A stretch of 64,000 bases of DNA, taken from a bacterium (lineage in GTDB: Bacteria; CLD3; SB21). The stretch is taken from positions 1 through 64,000 of the forward strand of contig WBUR01000006.1 of assembly GCA_008933615.1 (NCBI GenBank). The letters are read 5' to 3'. The notes beneath the pieces are model-generated. The model did no database searches and was not told where the DNA came from. It saw nothing but the letters and a program-made list of their open reading frames with translations. Positions 53,052-61,976 of this stretch are shown here, piece after piece. Each line of letters starts with the position of its first letter. The stretch's first letter is position 1. The position numbers and the translations under genes were made by a program.

Positions 53052-54134
53052 ATGACAAAAATACAATCGTGGAAAATGGAAGCCGTTGGGAAACCCATGC
53101 GGCAATTTGATAGTGACGCGCCTGCTTTGCAGGTAGATGAAGTACTGGTTCGCGTAGCCGGATGCGGCGTGTGCCATACCGATCTGGGATTCTTTTTTGA
53201 CGGTGTGAATACGATGAAGCCTCTGCCTTTGACGCTCGGACACGAGATCAGCGGTGTAGTGGAAGAAGCCGGATCCGCTGCAAGTTCATGGCTCGGCAAA
53301 GCCGTTCTCATTCCTGCCGTCATGCCGTGCGGAACTTGCGATCTTTGCAAAAAGGGACAAGTTCGTATCTGCCGCAATCAGAAAATGCCGGGAAATCACA
53401 TTGACGGCGGATTTGCAAGTCACGTGGTCGTACCGTCAAAATACCTGTGCGTCGTGGATGTTGCAGATCAAAAAGCGCTGTTCGGAAAATCCGGAGCGAC
53501 GTTGGCGCAACTTTCTGTGATCGCCGATGCAGTCACAACACCTTTACAGGCAATCAAGAACGCCGGGCTCGTTTCCGGCAATGTCGCGATTTTCATCGGG
53601 GCCGGCGGAGTCGGAGGTTATGGTATTCAAATCGCCGCATCCTTGGGTGCACATGTGGTCGTGCTCGATGTTGATGACAAAAAACTTGAAACATATTCTA
53701 ATTTCGGTGCATCGCTCACTATCAACCCTAAAACATCCGACGCCAAGGCCGTTCGTAAATCCATACAGTCTTGGGTGAAAGAAAAAGCGTATAATCCCTT
53801 TGAGTGGAAGATATTTGAAACGTCCGGCACGGCCAAGGGACAGGAATTGGCATTCAGCCTGCTCACCTTCGGCTCCAGATTATGCGTGGTCGGATTTACA
53901 TTAGACAACGTGACTGTCCGCCTGAGCAATCTCATGGCGTTCGACGCACAGGCCATCGGCAACTGGGGATGCGACGTATCTTACTATCCGGAGGCGTTGG
54001 ATTGGATTCGCAGCGGACAGATCCAGTTGATCCCATTTGTTAAAACCTTTCCGATGAGTGAAATTAATGCTGTCTTTGACCGCTCACACCGAAAAGAAAT
54101 TGATCAGCGTCCAGTGCTCATACCTGATTTCTAG
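53052..54134 (+). CDS. had: 6-hydroxycyclohex-1-ene-1-carbonyl-CoA dehydrogenase (zinc alcohol dehydrogenase family)
   Basis: 360 residues. Medium-chain alcohol dehydrogenase: catalytic zinc ligands in GCGVCHTDLGF and LTLGHEISGVV, structural zinc CGTCDLCKKGQVRIC, NAD site IFIGAGGVGGYGIQ. The family call rests on context: it heads an operon with the two other ring-modifying enzymes and benzoyl-CoA reductase, where Had oxidises 6-hydroxycyclohexene-carbonyl-CoA to the 6-oxo compound with NAD. Length and the CMPAV/NHIDGGFASH stretch fit Had of Thauera/Azoarcus type. Weak ribosome binding site. First gene of the operon. Confidence 0.87.
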   Translation: MTKIQSWKMEAVGKPMRQFDSDAPALQVDEVLVRVAGCGVCHTDLGFFFDGVNTMKPLPLTLGHEISGVVEEAGSAASSWLGKAVLIPAVMPCGTCDLCKKGQVRICRNQKMPGNHIDGGFASHVVVPSKYLCVVDVADQKALFGKSGATLAQLSVIADAVTTPLQAIKNAGLVSGNVAIFIGAGGVGGYGIQIAASLGAHVVVLDVDDKKLETYSNFGASLTINPKTSDAKAVRKSIQSWVKEKAYNPFEWKIFETSGTAKGQELAFSLLTFGSRLCVVGFTLDNVTVRLSNLMAFDAQAIGNWGCDVSYYPEALDWIRSGQIQLIPFVKTFPMSEINAVFDRSHRKEIDQRPVLIPDF

Positions 54135-54218: not shown

Positions 54219-55304
54219 ATGTTTAAAAATCATGATCTCGTACCCGACTATACTTTTAAAGAGATCCGGTATGAACTCAAGCCCATCAAGAGATCGTCCG
54301 GTCAATCGGTTGAAGGTTTATACGTTGCATGGGTCACTCTCAACAACCCTTCGCAGCTTAATTCATACACCACATTGATGGTCAAAGAAGTGATATTGGC
54401 ATTCCGTAAAGCGTCCAATTCCCGCGACGTGGTTGCCGTAGTTTTTACCGGTGAAGGCAATCGGGCATTCTGCACCGGTGGAAACACGAAAGAATACGCC
54501 GAGTACTACGCTGGCCAGCCCGACGAGTATCGCCAATACATGCGCTTGTTCAACGACATGGTCACCACGATTATGCACTGCGATAAACCGGTGATCAGCC
54601 GCGTCAACGGCATGCGTATCGCAGGCGGACAGGAAATAGGAATGGCGTGCGACTTCACCGTAGCGAGCGACCTCGCCGTATTCGGCCAGGCCGGGCCAAA
54701 ACACGGTTCCGTTCCGGACGGCGGTTCCACCGACTTTTTACCTTTATTTGTCGGAATTGAAAATGCGATGCTCAGTTGTACTTTATGCGAACTCTGGTCT
54801 GCGCACAAAGCATACCGTTTGGGATTGATAACCGACGTGCTGCCCGCTCTGAAAAAAGATGGAAAATTTATTCCTAATCCGTTGGTTGTCACCGACCGTT
54901 GGCTCGACGAAATGGGCAAGATCGTGCACGGAAATTTCAAGGCCGGCGAAGAAAAAGAGCTCGCAAAAAAACTTATGGCTACTTGCGAAACCGATCTCTC
55001 GTTATTGGACAAGCGGATCGATCAGCTTGTAGAATCATTGATGATGACCGTTCCGGGCTGTTTGACTAAAACGTTGGAATCTATGCGAAAACACAAGCTC
55101 GCGCACTGGGATAAGAACCGCGAAAGCAACCGCGCCTGGTTGGGCCTCAATATGATGAATGAAGGCCGCGCCGGATTCAGGGCATTCAACGAGGGTACGA
55201 AAGAAAATCGCGAAGTGGATTTCATCAAACTGCGTCAATTACTCGCCCAGGGAGAAAAGTGGAGTGAAAAACTCATTGAAGAAGTTCTGCCAAAGGGAAA
55301 ATAA
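54219..55304 (+). CDS. oah: 6-oxocyclohex-1-ene-1-carbonyl-CoA hydrolase (ring-opening)
   Basis: 361 residues of the crotonase fold, longer than ordinary enoyl-CoA hydratases. It adds water and cleaves the C-C bond of 6-oxocyclohexene-carbonyl-CoA, giving 3-hydroxypimelyl-CoA. Crotonase landmarks: AFCTGGNTKEYAEYYAGQPDEY (oxyanion-hole region), CDKPVISRVNGMRIAGGQEIGMACDFTVAS and GPKHGSVPDGGSTDFLPL. The C-terminal half (GLNMMNEGRAGFRAFNEGTKENREVDF) is typical of Oah. GAGGAG precedes ATG 54219. 84 bases after had. Confidence 0.93.
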   Translation: MFKNHDLVPDYTFKEIRYELKPIKRSSGQSVEGLYVAWVTLNNPSQLNSYTTLMVKEVILAFRKASNSRDVVAVVFTGEGNRAFCTGGNTKEYAEYYAGQPDEYRQYMRLFNDMVTTIMHCDKPVISRVNGMRIAGGQEIGMACDFTVASDLAVFGQAGPKHGSVPDGGSTDFLPLFVGIENAMLSCTLCELWSAHKAYRLGLITDVLPALKKDGKFIPNPLVVTDRWLDEMGKIVHGNFKAGEEKELAKKLMATCETDLSLLDKRIDQLVESLMMTVPGCLTKTLESMRKHKLAHWDKNRESNRAWLGLNMMNEGRAGFRAFNEGTKENREVDFIKLRQLLAQGEKWSEKLIEEVLPKGK

Positions 55305-55401: not shown

Positions 55402-56175
55402 ATGAGCGCTTATATGAAGATCAAAGTGGAATCTCGCTTCGACGAACAAGTTACTTTCATTTATCTAACCAACGGCAAAGGTAACATCGTTGACAAAGAG
55501 ATGATGCGGGAGATCATTCACGCGATCGACATTGCCGCCGAAGATATCCGCACCAAAGCGCTCGTTTTTTCCGGTAGCGGCGATCATTTCTCATTTGGTG
55601 CGAGTGTGCCTGAACATCAAAAAGAGCAGGCTGCGGAAATGTTGAGTACGTTTCATTCTATGTTCAGACGCTTATGCGAGGCCGGAATTCCGACCATCGC
55701 GCTTGTGCGCGGTCAATGTCTGGGCGGCGGGATGGAACTGGCCGCATTCTGTAATTGGGTCATCGCCGCAGAAAATGCACATTTTGGCCAACCTGAGATC
55801 GGCCTGGGAGTCTTTGCGCCGGTGGCATCTTTGCTTCTGCCGTATTTGGTTGCGCAATCGGCTGCCGATGACCTGTTGCTCGCAGGACATTTTATTTCTG
55901 CGACACGCGCCCGTGATATTGGATTGGTTAATACCGTGAGCGCCGATCCGGCAAGAGACGTGGACATTTTGCTGGAACAACATATTCTTACAAAGAGCGG
56001 AATCGCTTTACGAATGGCGGTCAAGGCAGCGCGGTTTCAGTTTTATCAATCGTTCCTTCGCGATATTCAGATTTTGGAATCCATGTACGTTAACGATCTC
56101 ATGGCTACGCATGACGCCAACGAAGGCATCGCGGCATTCATGGAAAAACGTAAACCCGTTTGGAAAAATACATGA
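55402..56175 (+). CDS. dch: cyclohexa-1,5-diene-1-carbonyl-CoA hydratase
   Basis: 257 residues, crotonase family, usual Dch/BzdW length. Hydrates the diene made by benzoyl-CoA reductase to 6-hydroxycyclohexene-carbonyl-CoA. Motifs: DHFSFGASVPEHQKEQA, IPTIALVRGQCLGGGMELAAFCNWVIAAENAHFGQPEIGLGVFAP. The GASVPEH stretch is characteristic of diene hydratases. No Shine-Dalgarno is obvious. It overlaps the next gene by four bases (ATGA). Confidence 0.92.
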   Translation: MSAYMKIKVESRFDEQVTFIYLTNGKGNIVDKEMMREIIHAIDIAAEDIRTKALVFSGSGDHFSFGASVPEHQKEQAAEMLSTFHSMFRRLCEAGIPTIALVRGQCLGGGMELAAFCNWVIAAENAHFGQPEIGLGVFAPVASLLLPYLVAQSAADDLLLAGHFISATRARDIGLVNTVSADPARDVDILLEQHILTKSGIALRMAVKAARFQFYQSFLRDIQILESMYVNDLMATHDANEGIAAFMEKRKPVWKNT

Positions 56176-56894
56176 TCAAGATAGATCTTAAGGACAAGGT
56201 CGTTGTTATCACCGGCGCGGCGAGCGGCATCGGGCGTTCGACCGCAGAAGTTTTTATTCGGGCAGGCGCGTCCGTTGTCGGCCTGGATATTAAGATTCCG
56301 GCGGAATCTTTGAAAGGCGCTCGATTTCTTGAAGTCAATGTAGCCAACTCGAACGACGTTGAGAAATGTTTCCAAAACATTTTGGAAACCGAAGGGCACA
56401 TTGATTGCCTCGTTAACAATGCAGGCATTTCAAAAGATGCGCCGGTTTGGAAAATGACCGAATCCATGTGGGATGATGTGATCGATGTAAATCTAAAAGG
56501 CGCGTTTAATTGTATTCACCATGTAGCGCCGCACTTTCGCGAACAGCAATCGGGAAAGATTGTCAATGTCGCATCCATCAACGGCATGCGCGGCAAATTT
56601 GGACTGGCAAATTATGCCGCATCGAAGGCGGGTATTATCGGACTCACGAAAGCCGTTGCCACCGAACTGGCTCGTTATCGCGTTAATGTGAACGCTGTTG
56701 CTCCGGGCCTAATCGCCACGCCGCTGGTGATGTCCATGACGCCCGAGGCTTTGGCGAAATCAAAATCGGAGATTCTACTCGGAGAGCCGGGCCAACCTGA
56801 GGATGTTGCCAATACCGTCGTTTTTTTGTGTTCCGATCTTGCAAAGCACATAACCGGCGAAATAATTAAGATCGACGGCGGACAGTATATATGA
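56172..56894 (+). CDS. short-chain dehydrogenase/reductase (FabG-like), probable hydroxyacyl-CoA dehydrogenase of the pathway
   Basis: 240 residues from ATG 56172 (frame open from 56160), an ATGA overlap with dch. Classical SDR: TGAASGIGRSTAE, LVNNAGISKDA, catalytic SINGMRGKFGLANYAASKAG (Ser, Tyr-x3-Lys) and VAPGLIATPLVMS. A similar gene (bzdZ) occurs in Azoarcus bzd clusters, as I recall. A plausible substrate is 3-hydroxypimelyl-CoA, the product of Oah, but this is inference; acetoacyl-type reduction is an alternative. Confidence 0.85.
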   Translation: MIKIDLKDKVVVITGAASGIGRSTAEVFIRAGASVVGLDIKIPAESLKGARFLEVNVANSNDVEKCFQNILETEGHIDCLVNNAGISKDAPVWKMTESMWDDVIDVNLKGAFNCIHHVAPHFREQQSGKIVNVASINGMRGKFGLANYAASKAGIIGLTKAVATELARYRVNVNAVAPGLIATPLVMSMTPEALAKSKSEILLGEPGQPEDVANTVVFLCSDLAKHITGEIIKIDGGQYI

Positions 56895-56965: not shown

Positions 56966-58126
56966 ATGACGTTTATCGAAAAATGCCATGGACAGACCCT
57001 TGATGAAATATTGTATTTGTGCCGTGAATTCAGCGAAGATCCGACGTATCCGACAGTAAAACAATGGAGAGAGGCCGGCGGAAAAGTTGTAGGACATTTT
57101 CAGGTTTATTTTCCTGAAGAGATCGCGCATGCCGCGGGGCTTCTTCCGGTTAAAGTTACCGGCGCGCAACTGGAAGGCATAGGCGCTGAATCGCATTTCG
57201 GGTCTTACCTATGTTCCGTCATCAAGACTTCACTTGAGCTCTCTATGTCCCATAACCTCGATCTCGATATGTTCGTCTCTCATCCGATCTGCGATGCGGC
57301 GCGAAATCTCGCTGCCATCTGGGGCCGGAATTTTCCGTACAAAAGCCAGATCCTCTATTTGCCGCAGAATCCGAATTCAAATCATTCGATCGAATACTTG
57401 CGCAATGAATACGACCGCTTGAAGCAGGACATTGAAAATGTTGCCGGAAGAAAAGTCAGCGATGATGATTTGAGACATTCTATTACGGTTTATAATGAAA
57501 GCCGGAATTGGATGAAAGAACTCTACGATATCAAACGCGATACGCCCTGGCAGATCGACGCTGAAGACGCCTATGCTCTGGTTGCCATGGCGGGTTTTTT
57601 GCCGAGAGAAGAACATAACGAGCTCATGTGCATAGTATTGCCGTTGATTCATGATCGTTCAAGATACGCTCAGGACAAGATGCGGGTCGTATTTGAAGGC
57701 GGGTTTTGCGAACAGCCGCCGTTAGATCTTATCCAAACGATCGGACGCTCATGTTATCTCGTGGATGACGACTTGCTTATTGGACTTCGGTATATACTGG
57801 ACGAAGTTCCGGCCACGGGCGATCCTTTACTTCAACTGGCCACAGCCTATATTGAAAACTCATCCTATAGCCCCGTTCAGCATGATCTGCGCAAACCCAA
57901 AGAAAAAATGCTTCTTCAGCGTTTTAAAAATGCCCGCGCCGATGCGGTAATTTTAGCGGCGGCAAAGATGTGCGAGCCCGGACTGGAGGAGCAGGTGGCA
58001 TATAGCAAGGCGTTGGACGAACACAAAATCCCCTATTTTATCAGCGAATTTGAGGAAAATCAGAACGCGTTTGACCATATCAGCATTCAGCTCGAAACAT
58101 TTGTCGAAAATTTAATCTTTCAATAG
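56966..58126 (+). CDS. bcrC: benzoyl-CoA reductase, HgdB-family subunit (BcrC/BzdN type)
   Basis: 386 residues, matching the 380-residue BcrC/BzdN class. Part of the substrate-binding and electron-accepting half of class I benzoyl-CoA reductase. 2-hydroxyglutaryl-CoA dehydratase D-component fold: [29 protein letters not shown], a Cys at [13 protein letters not shown] and another at [17 protein letters not shown] (cluster ligand candidates), and the C-terminal [28 protein letters not shown] precedes ATG 56966; the next gene follows after 10 bases. A 2-hydroxyacyl-CoA dehydratase is the alternative, but had-oah-dch upstream decide for benzoyl-CoA. Confidence 0.9.
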
Positions 58127-58136
58127 AGGAAACATC

Positions 58137-59435
58137 ATGAGTGAAACTTTATCTAACGAAACGATTGTCGGGCGCGGTGCGCGTGACGGTGCAGACCTGT
58201 TCCGAAACTGGTTCGCCGAATTATCTGACGCGGCGGAAACGGGCCGGCCGTCGGCCTACGTTTTTGTCATGGGCAGCCTGAATGAAATTTTGAAATCATT
58301 TGATTTTCCGGTTGTATTTCCGGAGATCAATTCGCTTCAAACCGCCGTACGCAGAATCTCCGGCGAATACCTGACCGAGGCGGAAGATTACGGTTACTCC
58401 CCTGATATTTGCGGATACGTTAAAGCAGATGTTGCGGTTCAGCTTCGGGGCGGTAAACACCCGATGGGAACCATACCGAAACCTTCAATGGCTGTGTTGA
58501 CCAATGCGTGTAACACGTATATCAAGTGGGCGGAAATTTGGGAACGCATGTATCAAATCCCGATAGTGACCATTGACGTTCCTGGGACACGTGGAAAGAA
58601 AATATTACGCGCACAGGATGACAGCCATTTTGAGAATGATCGTAAGTATGTACTTGCACAGTTGAAAGAATTAATTACGGTGTGCGAAAAAGTCAGCGGG
58701 AAAAAATTTGATATCGATAGATTTCGTGAAGTGCTTTCCTATGCAAACGATATGAGCCGCGCATGGAAAGAGATATTATTATGCAACGAGTCCCGGCCGT
58801 CCGTTTTTAACGCCCTAACCGACGGAACTATTTTTCTCGGAGTGGCCAATGGATTCAGAGGGACACGTGAAGGAAGCCGTTACTTCAAAGACCTTGCGGA
58901 GGAAATGCGCTACAAAGTCAGTGAGAGAATCGGAACTCTTACCGAGGAAAAATATCGTCTGGCATTTGTTGGTGTACCGTGTTATCCGATTTTCAGGAAA
59001 TTTAATGAGTATTTTTCGCTTTGGGGCGGAAGTTTTGTTCACTCCACTTATTTATGGTTTGCCTCCGGCGGAACCAACCTCGGTTTTGAATACGATCTCG
59101 AGCACCCGCTGGAAAGCCTTGCGGAAGGATTACTCGTGTCGGTGCGCGATGCGATGGACAGCATGTTTCATCAAGACCAGGCCTTGTTACAAATGATGGA
59201 AACCTACGCAATCGAAGGGGTTGTATATCATCCGATCAAGAGCTGCCGAACCGTTTCGACAGGGCTGGCCGATGGGCGTAAGCATTTGTTAGCAGAGCGG
59301 GACGTCGCCACTTTATTTTTGGAATCGGATATGATGGATAAACGCGTAGTATCTGAAGCACAAATGAAAAACAGAATTGACGCTTTTTTTGAAGGACTGG
59401 CATCGCGGCGAACTATCGCAGCAGCACAACTATAG
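58137..59435 (+). CDS. bcrB: benzoyl-CoA reductase, second HgdB-family subunit (BcrB/BzdO type)
   Basis: 432 residues. Partner of the preceding subunit; together they carry the active-site cluster and reduce the aromatic ring to the 1,5-diene. Visible: [59 protein letters not shown] (Cys), [10 protein letters not shown] and [25 protein letters not shown] with a Cys near the end. AGAGGAAACATC precedes ATG 58137. It ends 11 bases before the first activase gene. Confidence 0.9.
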
Positions 59436-59446
59436 GAGGTCGAGTA

Positions 59447-60259
59447 ATGGCATATGCAGCAGGAGTGGATGTCGGTTCCACTCAAACAAAAGCAGTGATT
59501 ATCGATGAGCGCCGCCGTATCGTGCAGCGATCGCTCATTGACACCGGCGCGAATGTGACCATGGCCGCAGAAAACGCTTTCAAGCAGGCGGTTGAACTTG
59601 CCGGTATAGGCGAACAGGAAGTGGAGTTTGTTATCGGCACTGGCTATGGACGATACAAGGTCACCTTCGGTAATAAGCAAATCACCGAAATAAGTTGTCA
59701 CGGACGCGGCGCCGTTCACATGTTTCCGAAGACCCGCACCGTGCTCGATATGGGCGGCCAGGACAGCAAAGCTATTCGTGTGAACGATAAGGGCGAGATC
59801 ATAGATTTCTGCATGAACGACAAATGTGCGGCAGGAACCGGAAGGTTTCTCGGCGCGGCGGCGGTAACGCTGGATATTCCGCTGGATAATTTAGGCCCTA
59901 CCGCACTGCTTGCTCAGCGAAGCGTGCGCATCAGCACTACATGTACGGTTTTCGCGGAATCTGAGATATTGTCCTGGCTTGGGAAAGGAAAAAAAGTCGA
60001 AGATATTCTATGGGGCGTTCATCAGTCTATTGCATCACGATCCACCGGACTCTTAAAGAGAGTGGGAGTTGAAGATGAAGTCTCGTTTACCGGAGGTGTT
60101 GCGAAAAACACGGGAATGATAAAAGCGCTAGAGGAAAGCCTTCAACATAAAATCAATATCAGCGAAGACTCTCATTATATGGGCGCTCTTGGTGCGGCTT
60201 TGTTTGCGATGGATCATATTATTGCAAGCCGGAAGCCTCATGCAAAGGAGGCCGTATGA
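59447..60259 (+). CDS. benzoyl-CoA reductase ATPase (activase) subunit 1
   Basis: 270 residues of the ASKHA/BadF-BcrA-HgdC family. It hydrolyses ATP to push low-potential electrons from ferredoxin into the reductase half. Phosphate loop [35 protein letters not shown] (Cys127) and [11 protein letters not shown] (Cys166): the Cys positions equal those of the cluster ligands of Acidaminococcus HgdC, a single [4Fe-4S] bridging two subunits. [13 protein letters not shown] and [10 protein letters not shown] close the fold. Sequence is rather HgdC-like. AGGAGG ribosome binding site. By order it corresponds to BzdP; overlap of four bases with the next gene. Confidence 0.9.
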
Positions 60260-61071
60260 AATACACAGCAGGATTGGATATGGGATCAACGTATATCAAA
60301 GCGGTAATCTTGTCTGAGGATCAGTCCATTTTCGGCAAGGCCATGGCGCCTACAGGATCAAAACTGGTCGAGACGTCGGAATCGGTTCTCGCAGAAGCCA
60401 TTCGCTCAGCCGGACTTATTAGAGAGAACATAAAATACATTATCACTACCGGCTACGGCCGCCACATGGTTCCGTTTCGAGATCTTCAGGTCACTGACCT
60501 GACCGCCTCGGCTCGCGGTTCACAGATGCTTTTTCCGACAACTCGCACTATTCTCGACATTGGCGGTCAGACGATGAAGGCTACGCGCGTTGACGATAAA
60601 GGAAAAGTCGTCACGTTTCGCCTCAATGACAAGTGCGCGGCCGGCACAGGCGCTTTTCTAGAGAAGACGGCCCGGTATATGGGGTACAGTACTTCGGATA
60701 TAGGCTCGCTGCTGCATTTGTCAAAGCAGAAAGTTCCAATCTCAGGCGTGTGTGCTGTATTTGCGGAATCGGAGGTCATCAGTCATTTATCCGAAGGTGT
60801 TCCGCCGGAAGATATTATGTACGGCGCCATTTCGTCGCTGACAGATCGATCCGTACAGCTTCTCACAAGAATTAAAGCAGAGCCAACCTACATTCTGATC
60901 GGCGGTATCTTGAGATGGGATACCATGGCACGATCGATCGGAAACCAATTGACCGGAACGGTGAATGTTCCAGACGGAGATCTGCCGCAATATGTTACCG
61001 CGACGGGCGCCGCATTGCTTGGGCATTTACGATTACATCAAATTGAGAAAACAGCGACTATAACTGCATAA
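60256..61071 (+). CDS. benzoyl-CoA reductase ATPase (activase) subunit 2
   Basis: 271 residues, homologous to the preceding gene: [46 protein letters not shown] (Cys127), [19 protein letters not shown] (Cys166). The two would form a heterodimer around one [4Fe-4S] cluster. Both subunits are about 270 residues, as in the Azoarcus Bzd type; in Thauera BcrA is about 440. AAAGGAGG ribosome binding site; the ATGA overlap shows translational coupling. By order it corresponds to BzdQ. No ferredoxin gene follows. Confidence 0.9.
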
Positions 61072-61075
61072 TACT

Positions 61076-61669
61076 ATGATAACCGCCATTCAAATTCTGG
61101 TTCAGGAACACCGCGTCATTGAGTCTATGTTGTTATGTCTTGAACGTCTTGTTGACAATATGCAACGTCAGAAGAAATTGGATAGCGCATACGCACTGAC
61201 TATTATCACATTTCTCCGTGAATTCGCGGATGCTTGTCATCACGGGAAAGAGGAAGATGTTTTATTTAAATTTTCAGATGCTAAAACGGGAGGGCATGGG
61301 CCTGTTGAAGTTCTGATAGAAGAACATTCTCAAGGCAGGGGCTATGTCGGAGAAATGATTAAAAGCCTGAATAAAGCGGGGGAAGGCGATCCTCATGCAA
61401 TAAGCGTATTCAGTGACAATGCGCTTGATCTCACTGATATGCTGCGCCGACACATAGAGCGGGAAGACAAAGTGGTGTTTCCGATGATCGAAGAACTCTG
61501 CCAATCGGAAGATGCGGAAAAACTGTGGAAAGATTGTGTTGCAGTTGAAAAGGATGCCGGGGGAAATCGTCACAAGGAATTTATTACTTCCGCAAAATCA
61601 TGTTGTAACTATTTTAATGTTCCGTTCCCTGAAAAAAGTATATCTGAACTAGTTATTCAATTCGCCTAG
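61076..61669 (+). CDS. hemerythrin-like (HHE) protein at the end of the benzoyl-CoA operon
   Basis: 197 residues. Four-helix hemerythrin fold with di-iron ligand candidates His12 (EHRVIE), His55/His56 with Glu60 (CHHGKEEDVLF), His84 (EEHSQGR) and His126/Glu130 (HIEREDKVVFP). Such proteins bind O2 or NO or store iron. It starts four bases after the second activase gene, so it is in the same transcript. An O2-binding guard for the oxygen-labile reductase is a reasonable inference. The tail holds a Cys pair (SCCNYF). A role in iron or cluster repair is the alternative. Confidence 0.88.
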   Translation: MITAIQILVQEHRVIESMLLCLERLVDNMQRQKKLDSAYALTIITFLREFADACHHGKEEDVLFKFSDAKTGGHGPVEVLIEEHSQGRGYVGEMIKSLNKAGEGDPHAISVFSDNALDLTDMLRRHIEREDKVVFPMIEELCQSEDAEKLWKDCVAVEKDAGGNRHKEFITSAKSCCNYFNVPFPEKSISELVIQFA

Positions 61670-61670
61670 T

Positions 61671-61976
61671 ATGTATACATCGCAAAACACAAAATTGCCG
61701 ATTCTTGGACAAAAAAACCACGATGGCGGTTCGGGCTGTACGTATGAAGACGAAACGCTTATAAAGGAAGGATGGGAACGAAGATTTATAGCGGACGAAC
61801 GAATGGCTAAAGATTCTGAAGCAACGTATCTCGATTTAGGTTATGAAGTGAAACGCGTTCCTTTTGACAGCGGCTCTATGTCTGAAGATTGCCATGGATG
61901 CGAGATAGTTGTAAAAAAATTTTGTGTCTTGTACACGCGAAAACTTTCTAAAATGAAGCAATATAAATCAGACTGA
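61671..61976 (+). CDS. small cysteine-containing protein of unknown function, last gene of the benzoyl-CoA operon
   Basis: 101 residues, not recognised as a named family. It starts one base after the hemerythrin stop, so it is translated from the same message. Four cysteines: Cys23, Cys74, Cys77 (CHGC) and Cys85. The middle (EGWERRFIADE ... YLDLGYEVKRVPFD) and the end (FCVLYTRK) have a compact alpha/beta look; no signal peptide or membrane segment. It may bind a metal or cluster, but it is too short and differently spaced for a ferredoxin (no CxxCxxC). Convergent with glyA, 6 bases apart. Confidence 0.72.
   Translation: MYTSQNTKLPILGQKNHDGGSGCTYEDETLIKEGWERRFIADERMAKDSEATYLDLGYEVKRVPFDSGSMSEDCHGCEIVVKKFCVLYTRKLSKMKQYKSD

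Follow-up and report, generated by a model that had tools for sequence, protein, structure and literature searches.

The small gene at the end of a benzoyl-CoA pathway operon, referred to here as ORF101, is a real gene and more than a chance open reading frame, and it probably codes for a dedicated, though undescribed, helper of the class I (ATP-dependent) benzoyl-CoA reductase. The family to which it belongs is real, lies directly behind bcrD or within bzd operons, and follows the reductase subtype. We give roughly even odds to ORF101 being a soluble accessory protein dedicated to those class I reductases in which both activator ATPases (BcrA/BcrD or BzdP/BzdQ) are short, docking on the enzyme and aiding electron activation.

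The operon and its last gene

In the window, the whole 64,000-nucleotide stretch that was analysed, genes on the + strand are ordered had-oah-dch-SDR-bcrCBAD-hemerythrin-ORF101. The products of had (53052-54134; TIGR03201, 475 bits) and oah (54219-55304; TIGR03200, 579 bits) both score above the NCBIfam cut-offs, and assignment to the benzoyl-CoA pathway is thus safe; dch (55402-56175) has TIGR03189 as its top match, at 226 bits and below the cut-off of 292. A gene for an SDR-family oxidoreductase follows (56172-56894, or from an alternative TTG start at 56160; PF13561, with NF004198 under cut-off), and then those for the bcrC-like (56966-58126) and bcrB-like (58137-59435) catalytic subunits. 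Both match PF06050 and score far less than the Thauera-type models require (263 bits against a cut-off of 421 for TIGR02263, and 205 bits against 486 for TIGR02260), indicating a divergent reductase subtype. The bcrA-like (59447-60259, 270 aa, short form) and bcrD-like (60256-61071, 271 aa) genes code for the activator ATPase subunits, each matching PF01869 and TIGR00241, and a hemerythrin (HHE) domain protein is encoded at 61076-61669 (PF01814, E=1.2e-21), with a weak likeness to the RIC/YtfE di-iron proteins of Fe-S repair (TIGR03652, E=4.5e-5, under cut-off).

ORF101 (61671-61976, + strand) starts with ATG, codes for 101 residues and is the 3′-most gene of this array. The hemerythrin stop codon ends at 61669, leaving a single base between the two genes as the initial annotation had stated, and from this 1-bp spacing and the conserved gene order we infer that ORF101 is cotranscribed with the operon. 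A homologue lies at the matching place in the congener G002, with 60% amino acid identity, dN of 0.29 and saturated dS, and the gene is present in six of the nine genomes analysed from the window's phylum, each time behind bcrD and hemerythrin. Two others, G005 and G006, lack the gene, and neither Oah nor Bcr was found in them; in G001 the contig stops inside the bcr genes, about 240 bases past bcrA, and the position of ORF101 is therefore not visible. Between the window and G002, bcrA and bcrD are 98% and 95% identical (dS 0.34 and 0.45), and identity falls sharply just past 61150; comparing window positions 61076-61976 with L008:9431-10322 of G002, hemerythrin is 68% and ORF101 60% identical, with dS at 1.6 for the former and saturated for the latter. 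This fall suggests recombination at the operon end or much faster change there.

A small family with an invariant CxxC

The window protein had been described as a small conserved domain with no family name, and the searches agree: there are 40 distinct homologues and no Pfam or NCBIfam family. W35, Y53, G57, C74 and C77 are invariant in all 40 distinct sequences, and V60, T89, R38, E59, G34 and R90 are nearly so. Members share a b-a-b-b core of ~65 residues that closes with YTR-(K/R), or more broadly (Y/F/W)-T-(R/K), and the window protein fits all of these traits; its conserved core, placed by an AlphaFold2 model and alignment A2, spans about residues 26-92 (61746-61946), with the Cys74-His-Gly-Cys77 motif at 61890-61901 and the conserved C-terminal strand end, Y88-T89-R90-K91, at 61932-61943. 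Cys23, Cys74, Cys77 and Cys85 and the motifs quoted in the initial annotation are all present in ORF101; as features of the family, Cys74 and Cys77 hold throughout, whereas Cys23 is conserved mainly within the phylum and Cys85 only in the congener. Twelve members have a third cysteine, in a CxxCx4C arrangement.

A profile search recovered members from 19 of 386 genomes, a set that includes nine genomes of the window's phylum, one each from the phyla around G039 and G065, and five from that around G073. A consensus-like bait, composed with the alignment as a guide and used for searching only, located 23 family loci in named genomes of Gemmatimonadota, Acidobacteriota, Planctomycetota, Chloroflexota, KSB1, Tectomicrobia, Neomarinimicrobiota, LCP-89, Syntrophorhabdus and a Geothermarchaeota archaeon; all of these hits were also recovered with a profile made from alignment A1, which holds six members of the window's phylum and one from Tectomicrobia. 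As sole query, the window protein found nothing in the contig scan of named genomes and little outside its own phylum. Neither the family gene nor a close BcrB was found on plasmids.

AlphaFold2 predicts a mostly confident core with a helix-b-a-b-(a)-b arrangement and a disordered N-terminal tail, mean pLDDT being 92-95 for residues 31-60, 84 for 61-70, 77 for 71-80 and 92 for 81-90. Searches of Pfam, NCBIfam and PDB sequences with single proteins and profiles gave no real match to the family, and Foldseek comparison of two AlphaFold2 models with the PDB gave no usable one (best E 0.9), marginal rows including methyltransferases and PII/GlnK proteins. Resemblance to the MtbA/MtaA methyltransferases (NF041608, TIGR01463; about 340 residues) amounts to 19 bits against a cut-off of 600, with an MtbA match (E=6e-4) in only one of 22 family members, and is attributed to chance, as is a match to the dynein protein DC3 (E=0.0011). 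ORF101 matches neither PF01869 (BcrAD_BadFG) nor PF06050 (HGD-D), and is thus a neighbour of reductase subunits A-D and not one of them. The putative Fe-S cluster domain PF04060 (FeS) weakly matches two of 22 members (best E=0.005), but not the window protein; PF04060 has four cysteine ligands, whereas only two cysteines are conserved in the family. With only two of the four ORF101 cysteines conserved, a self-contained Fe-S cluster is less likely.

Linkage to class I reductases and dependence on subtype

Genes for class I reductase subunits lie within 10 kb and on the same strand at 36 of the 41 family loci, or 35 of 40 when the window is left out, and the chance that a random gene would lie so close to reductase genes is under 1%. 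Because the loci were collected through the family and not through the reductase, the count carries no bias toward bcr. The proposal that homologues would sit beside anaerobic aromatic genes is therefore upheld; the partner is narrower than the bcr, bzd and bam genes at large that had been suggested, being the class I reductases with short activator subunits. At nearly all bcr-type loci the family gene is right behind bcrD, or behind a hemerythrin gene that follows bcrD, and this placement spans the window's phylum, Gemmatimonadota, Acidobacteriota, Planctomycetota, Chloroflexota, KSB1 and Neomarinimicrobiota; the archaeal locus L050, with its bcr genes downstream of the family gene, is an exception to the order. 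In most bzd-type loci the gene lies between bzdV or a GNAT gene and an alcohol dehydrogenase gene, and in L067 it is between those for ferredoxin and GNAT. A contig end truncates each of the loci L051, L055 and L063, which still have had/oah or an aromatic-type alcohol dehydrogenase gene adjoining. The gene is away from reductase genes in L052 (Syntrophorhabdus), where a BcrC-like gene occurs elsewhere in the genome (E=2e-28), and in L064 (G109:C92:6017-6334), where it adjoins transporter and glyoxalase-like genes. L064 is the one real exception to the linkage, with no class I BcrB or BcrC detectable in the G109 genome.

Other neighbours recur at these loci. A GNAT-type acetyltransferase gene is seen in the operons of every class I reductase type, including those without the CxxC family (L009:1572, L011:10502, L013:9111, L058:9774, L067:3784, L068:9326, L144:10705, L145:2 and L146:7053), and loci of Planctomycetota, Gemmatimonadota and Acidobacteriota also have hemerythrin-like genes close to the reductase (L043, L047, L034, L038 and L040), with weak matches in L034 and L038 and the opposite strand in L040. 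L044 and L045 (JASMMN010000024.1, Phycisphaerales) are two apparently identical bcr operons with the family gene, in opposite orientation and no more than ~30 kb apart, and reflect either an inverted duplication or an assembly artefact.

Across the 386 genomes, the family and Oah occur together in 15 where 1.1 would be expected (19 genomes with the family, 23 with Oah; Fisher p=5e-18). Family and BcrD distances are correlated (Mantel r=0.65, 0 of 5000 shuffles), as expected of genes inherited together.

Presence of the family tracks the reductase subtype and not the host. Among Oah-containing genomes with an assessable class I reductase, which leaves out G001 for its contig end and G242 for having no convincing class I set, the family is in all 15 with window-type (11) or bzd-type (4) reductases and in none of the six with reductases of long-BcrA or divergent short type (Fisher p=1.8e-5, with six of the fifteen coming from one phylum). 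Both ATPase subunits are short in window-type and bzd-type reductases. The long-BcrA, Thauera-like genomes without the family (G033, G117, G344, G355 and G360) have a BcrA insertion of ~150 residues, and the reductase of G056 is a divergent one with short ATPases. Within a single taxonomic family of the five-genome phylum around G073, G073 and G214 (short BcrA) have the gene, but G344 (long BcrA) does not. We considered whether the long BcrA insertion might itself contain a fused member of the family and rejected this, as the two share no sequence similarity. In a BcrB tree the window type forms one clade of 25 rows, G001 included, with 100/100 support, although the tree has some long deep branches whose joins are uncertain. 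This clade, to which bcrCBAD of the window (56966-61071) belongs, is apart from the Thauera-like and bzd types and occurs in many, mostly uncultured, phyla; it may deserve a subtype name of its own.

Proposed role and alternatives

Cluster insertion, electron transfer and redox sensing, the roles raised in the initial annotation, are candidates. In our reading ORF101 would most likely act at the activator/electron-transfer step, with its CxxC as a metal or thiol site. ORF101 would dock on the activator dimer, the catalytic dimer or both through the conserved W/R/Y-T-R face, and once docked would aid electron activation or a short-lived contact between activator and catalyst. The CxxC would work as a dithiol or be the seat of a metal or Fe-S site, perhaps with the motifs of two subunits brought together in a homodimer; two cysteines per chain are too few for a [4Fe-4S] cluster, but a dimer could hold one, like the subunit-bridging cluster of the reductase activator (PMC11971306). 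We propose that Thauera-like reductases with long BcrA manage without ORF101 because the BcrA insertion would fill its role, a functional replacement that shows no sequence similarity to the family. BCR- and MBR-type reductases are reported as permanent tetramers, whereas the modules of BZD-type enzymes are predicted to meet only transiently (PMC11971306). The family occurs with BZD-type reductases and is absent where BcrA has the insertion; taken with this transient contact, its distribution is most naturally read as that of a helper in docking or coupling. However, neither the report on the MBR type nor G056 fits this reading neatly: MBR-type enzymes are also permanent tetramers, so that the argument from transient complexes is only suggestive, and the short ATPases of G056 occur without a family member, making the match between short BcrA and the family less than complete. 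L052 and L064, outside a reductase context, and the unlikeness of the BcrA insertion to the family also count against an accessory protein. A role in maturation is argued against by BzdNO, which carries both of its unusual Fe-S clusters when made from its catalytic genes in Escherichia coli (PMC11971306), and the family is thus not needed for these clusters in that host.

A different view, which we regard as unlikely, is that ORF101 and the hemerythrin shield or rebuild the oxygen-sensitive Fe-S clusters of the reductase, with the CxxC supplying, for example, iron or reducing equivalents. Within the benzoyl-CoA pathway it is the reductase step that is sensitive to oxygen (PMC5658619), the window hemerythrin has its sub-threshold likeness to RIC/YtfE, and a hemerythrin gene immediately precedes the family gene in all six genomes of the window's phylum that have it. 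Most other loci, however, have no adjoining hemerythrin, yet the reductase is nearly always there; the family is also found in bzd operons without hemerythrin, and the Thauera-like type lacks it, even though facultative anaerobes are, according to the literature, the typical hosts of class I enzymes.

The accessory-protein reading has a bolder form, which we consider decidedly unlikely: ORF101 would be a fifth component of class I reductases that has so far escaped notice, acting as a homodimer in which the two CxxC motifs together form a metal or Fe-S centre and gate electron transfer between a separable activator (BcrAD/BzdPQ) and catalyst (BcrBC/BzdNO), with the BcrA insertion replacing it in the Thauera-like enzymes studied so far.

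The single invariant CxxC, the small soluble domain and the position as the operon's last gene would also suit a redox- or ligand-responsive sensor with control over the operon or the reductase, its dithiol reading the redox state and turning the enzyme off when oxygen appears. We think this very unlikely, as Pfam searches gave no match to a DNA-binding domain in ORF101 or the family, and the strict dependence on subtype points at the enzyme and not at general redox control. It is more doubtful still that ORF101 is an electron carrier, a small Fe-S protein in place of the ferredoxin whose gene is behind bcrD in Thauera. ORF101 does lie behind bcrD, and no ORF with a ferredoxin motif was found in the window operon; like the 2[4Fe-4S] ferredoxins (BzdM and relatives) it is a small protein with a CxxC encoded in a reductase operon. 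It differs from them, however, in its predicted fold and in having one CxxC instead of eight cysteines, with four cysteines in total, two of them conserved, and without the two CxxCxxCxxxC motifs; two invariant cysteines are too few for a single-chain cluster, and in L067 the family gene adjoins the true ferredoxin gene of its own operon. Partnership with another enzyme of the operon, such as the SDR or the zinc-type alcohol dehydrogenase encoded directly after the family gene in about a dozen loci, is the least credible of all, since the loci of the window's phylum, Planctomycetes and many others have no alcohol dehydrogenase gene at that place, and the common neighbour is the reductase.

Although the enzyme class is known, its companion family has no name in Pfam or NCBIfam. 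It may correspond to bzdS, bzdT or bzdU, three genes in the bzd operon of Aromatoleum (Azoarcus) sp. CIB; these too belong to a class I BZD-type operon and have had no function assigned to them. In the bzd-type loci here the family gene has bzdQ, bzdV and the genes for ferredoxin and GNAT close by, roughly the place that bzdS, bzdT and bzdU occupy. In breaking aromatic rings without oxygen, class I benzoyl-CoA reductase carries out a reduction that is among the most demanding in biology, and its biochemistry has been built on few, mainly denitrifying, species. If our reading is right, the working enzyme of many uncultured phyla has a missing part, and the extra protein could help to explain the trouble in making or isolating such reductases. 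The ORF101 family also offers a compact marker gene for this reductase subtype in metagenomes.
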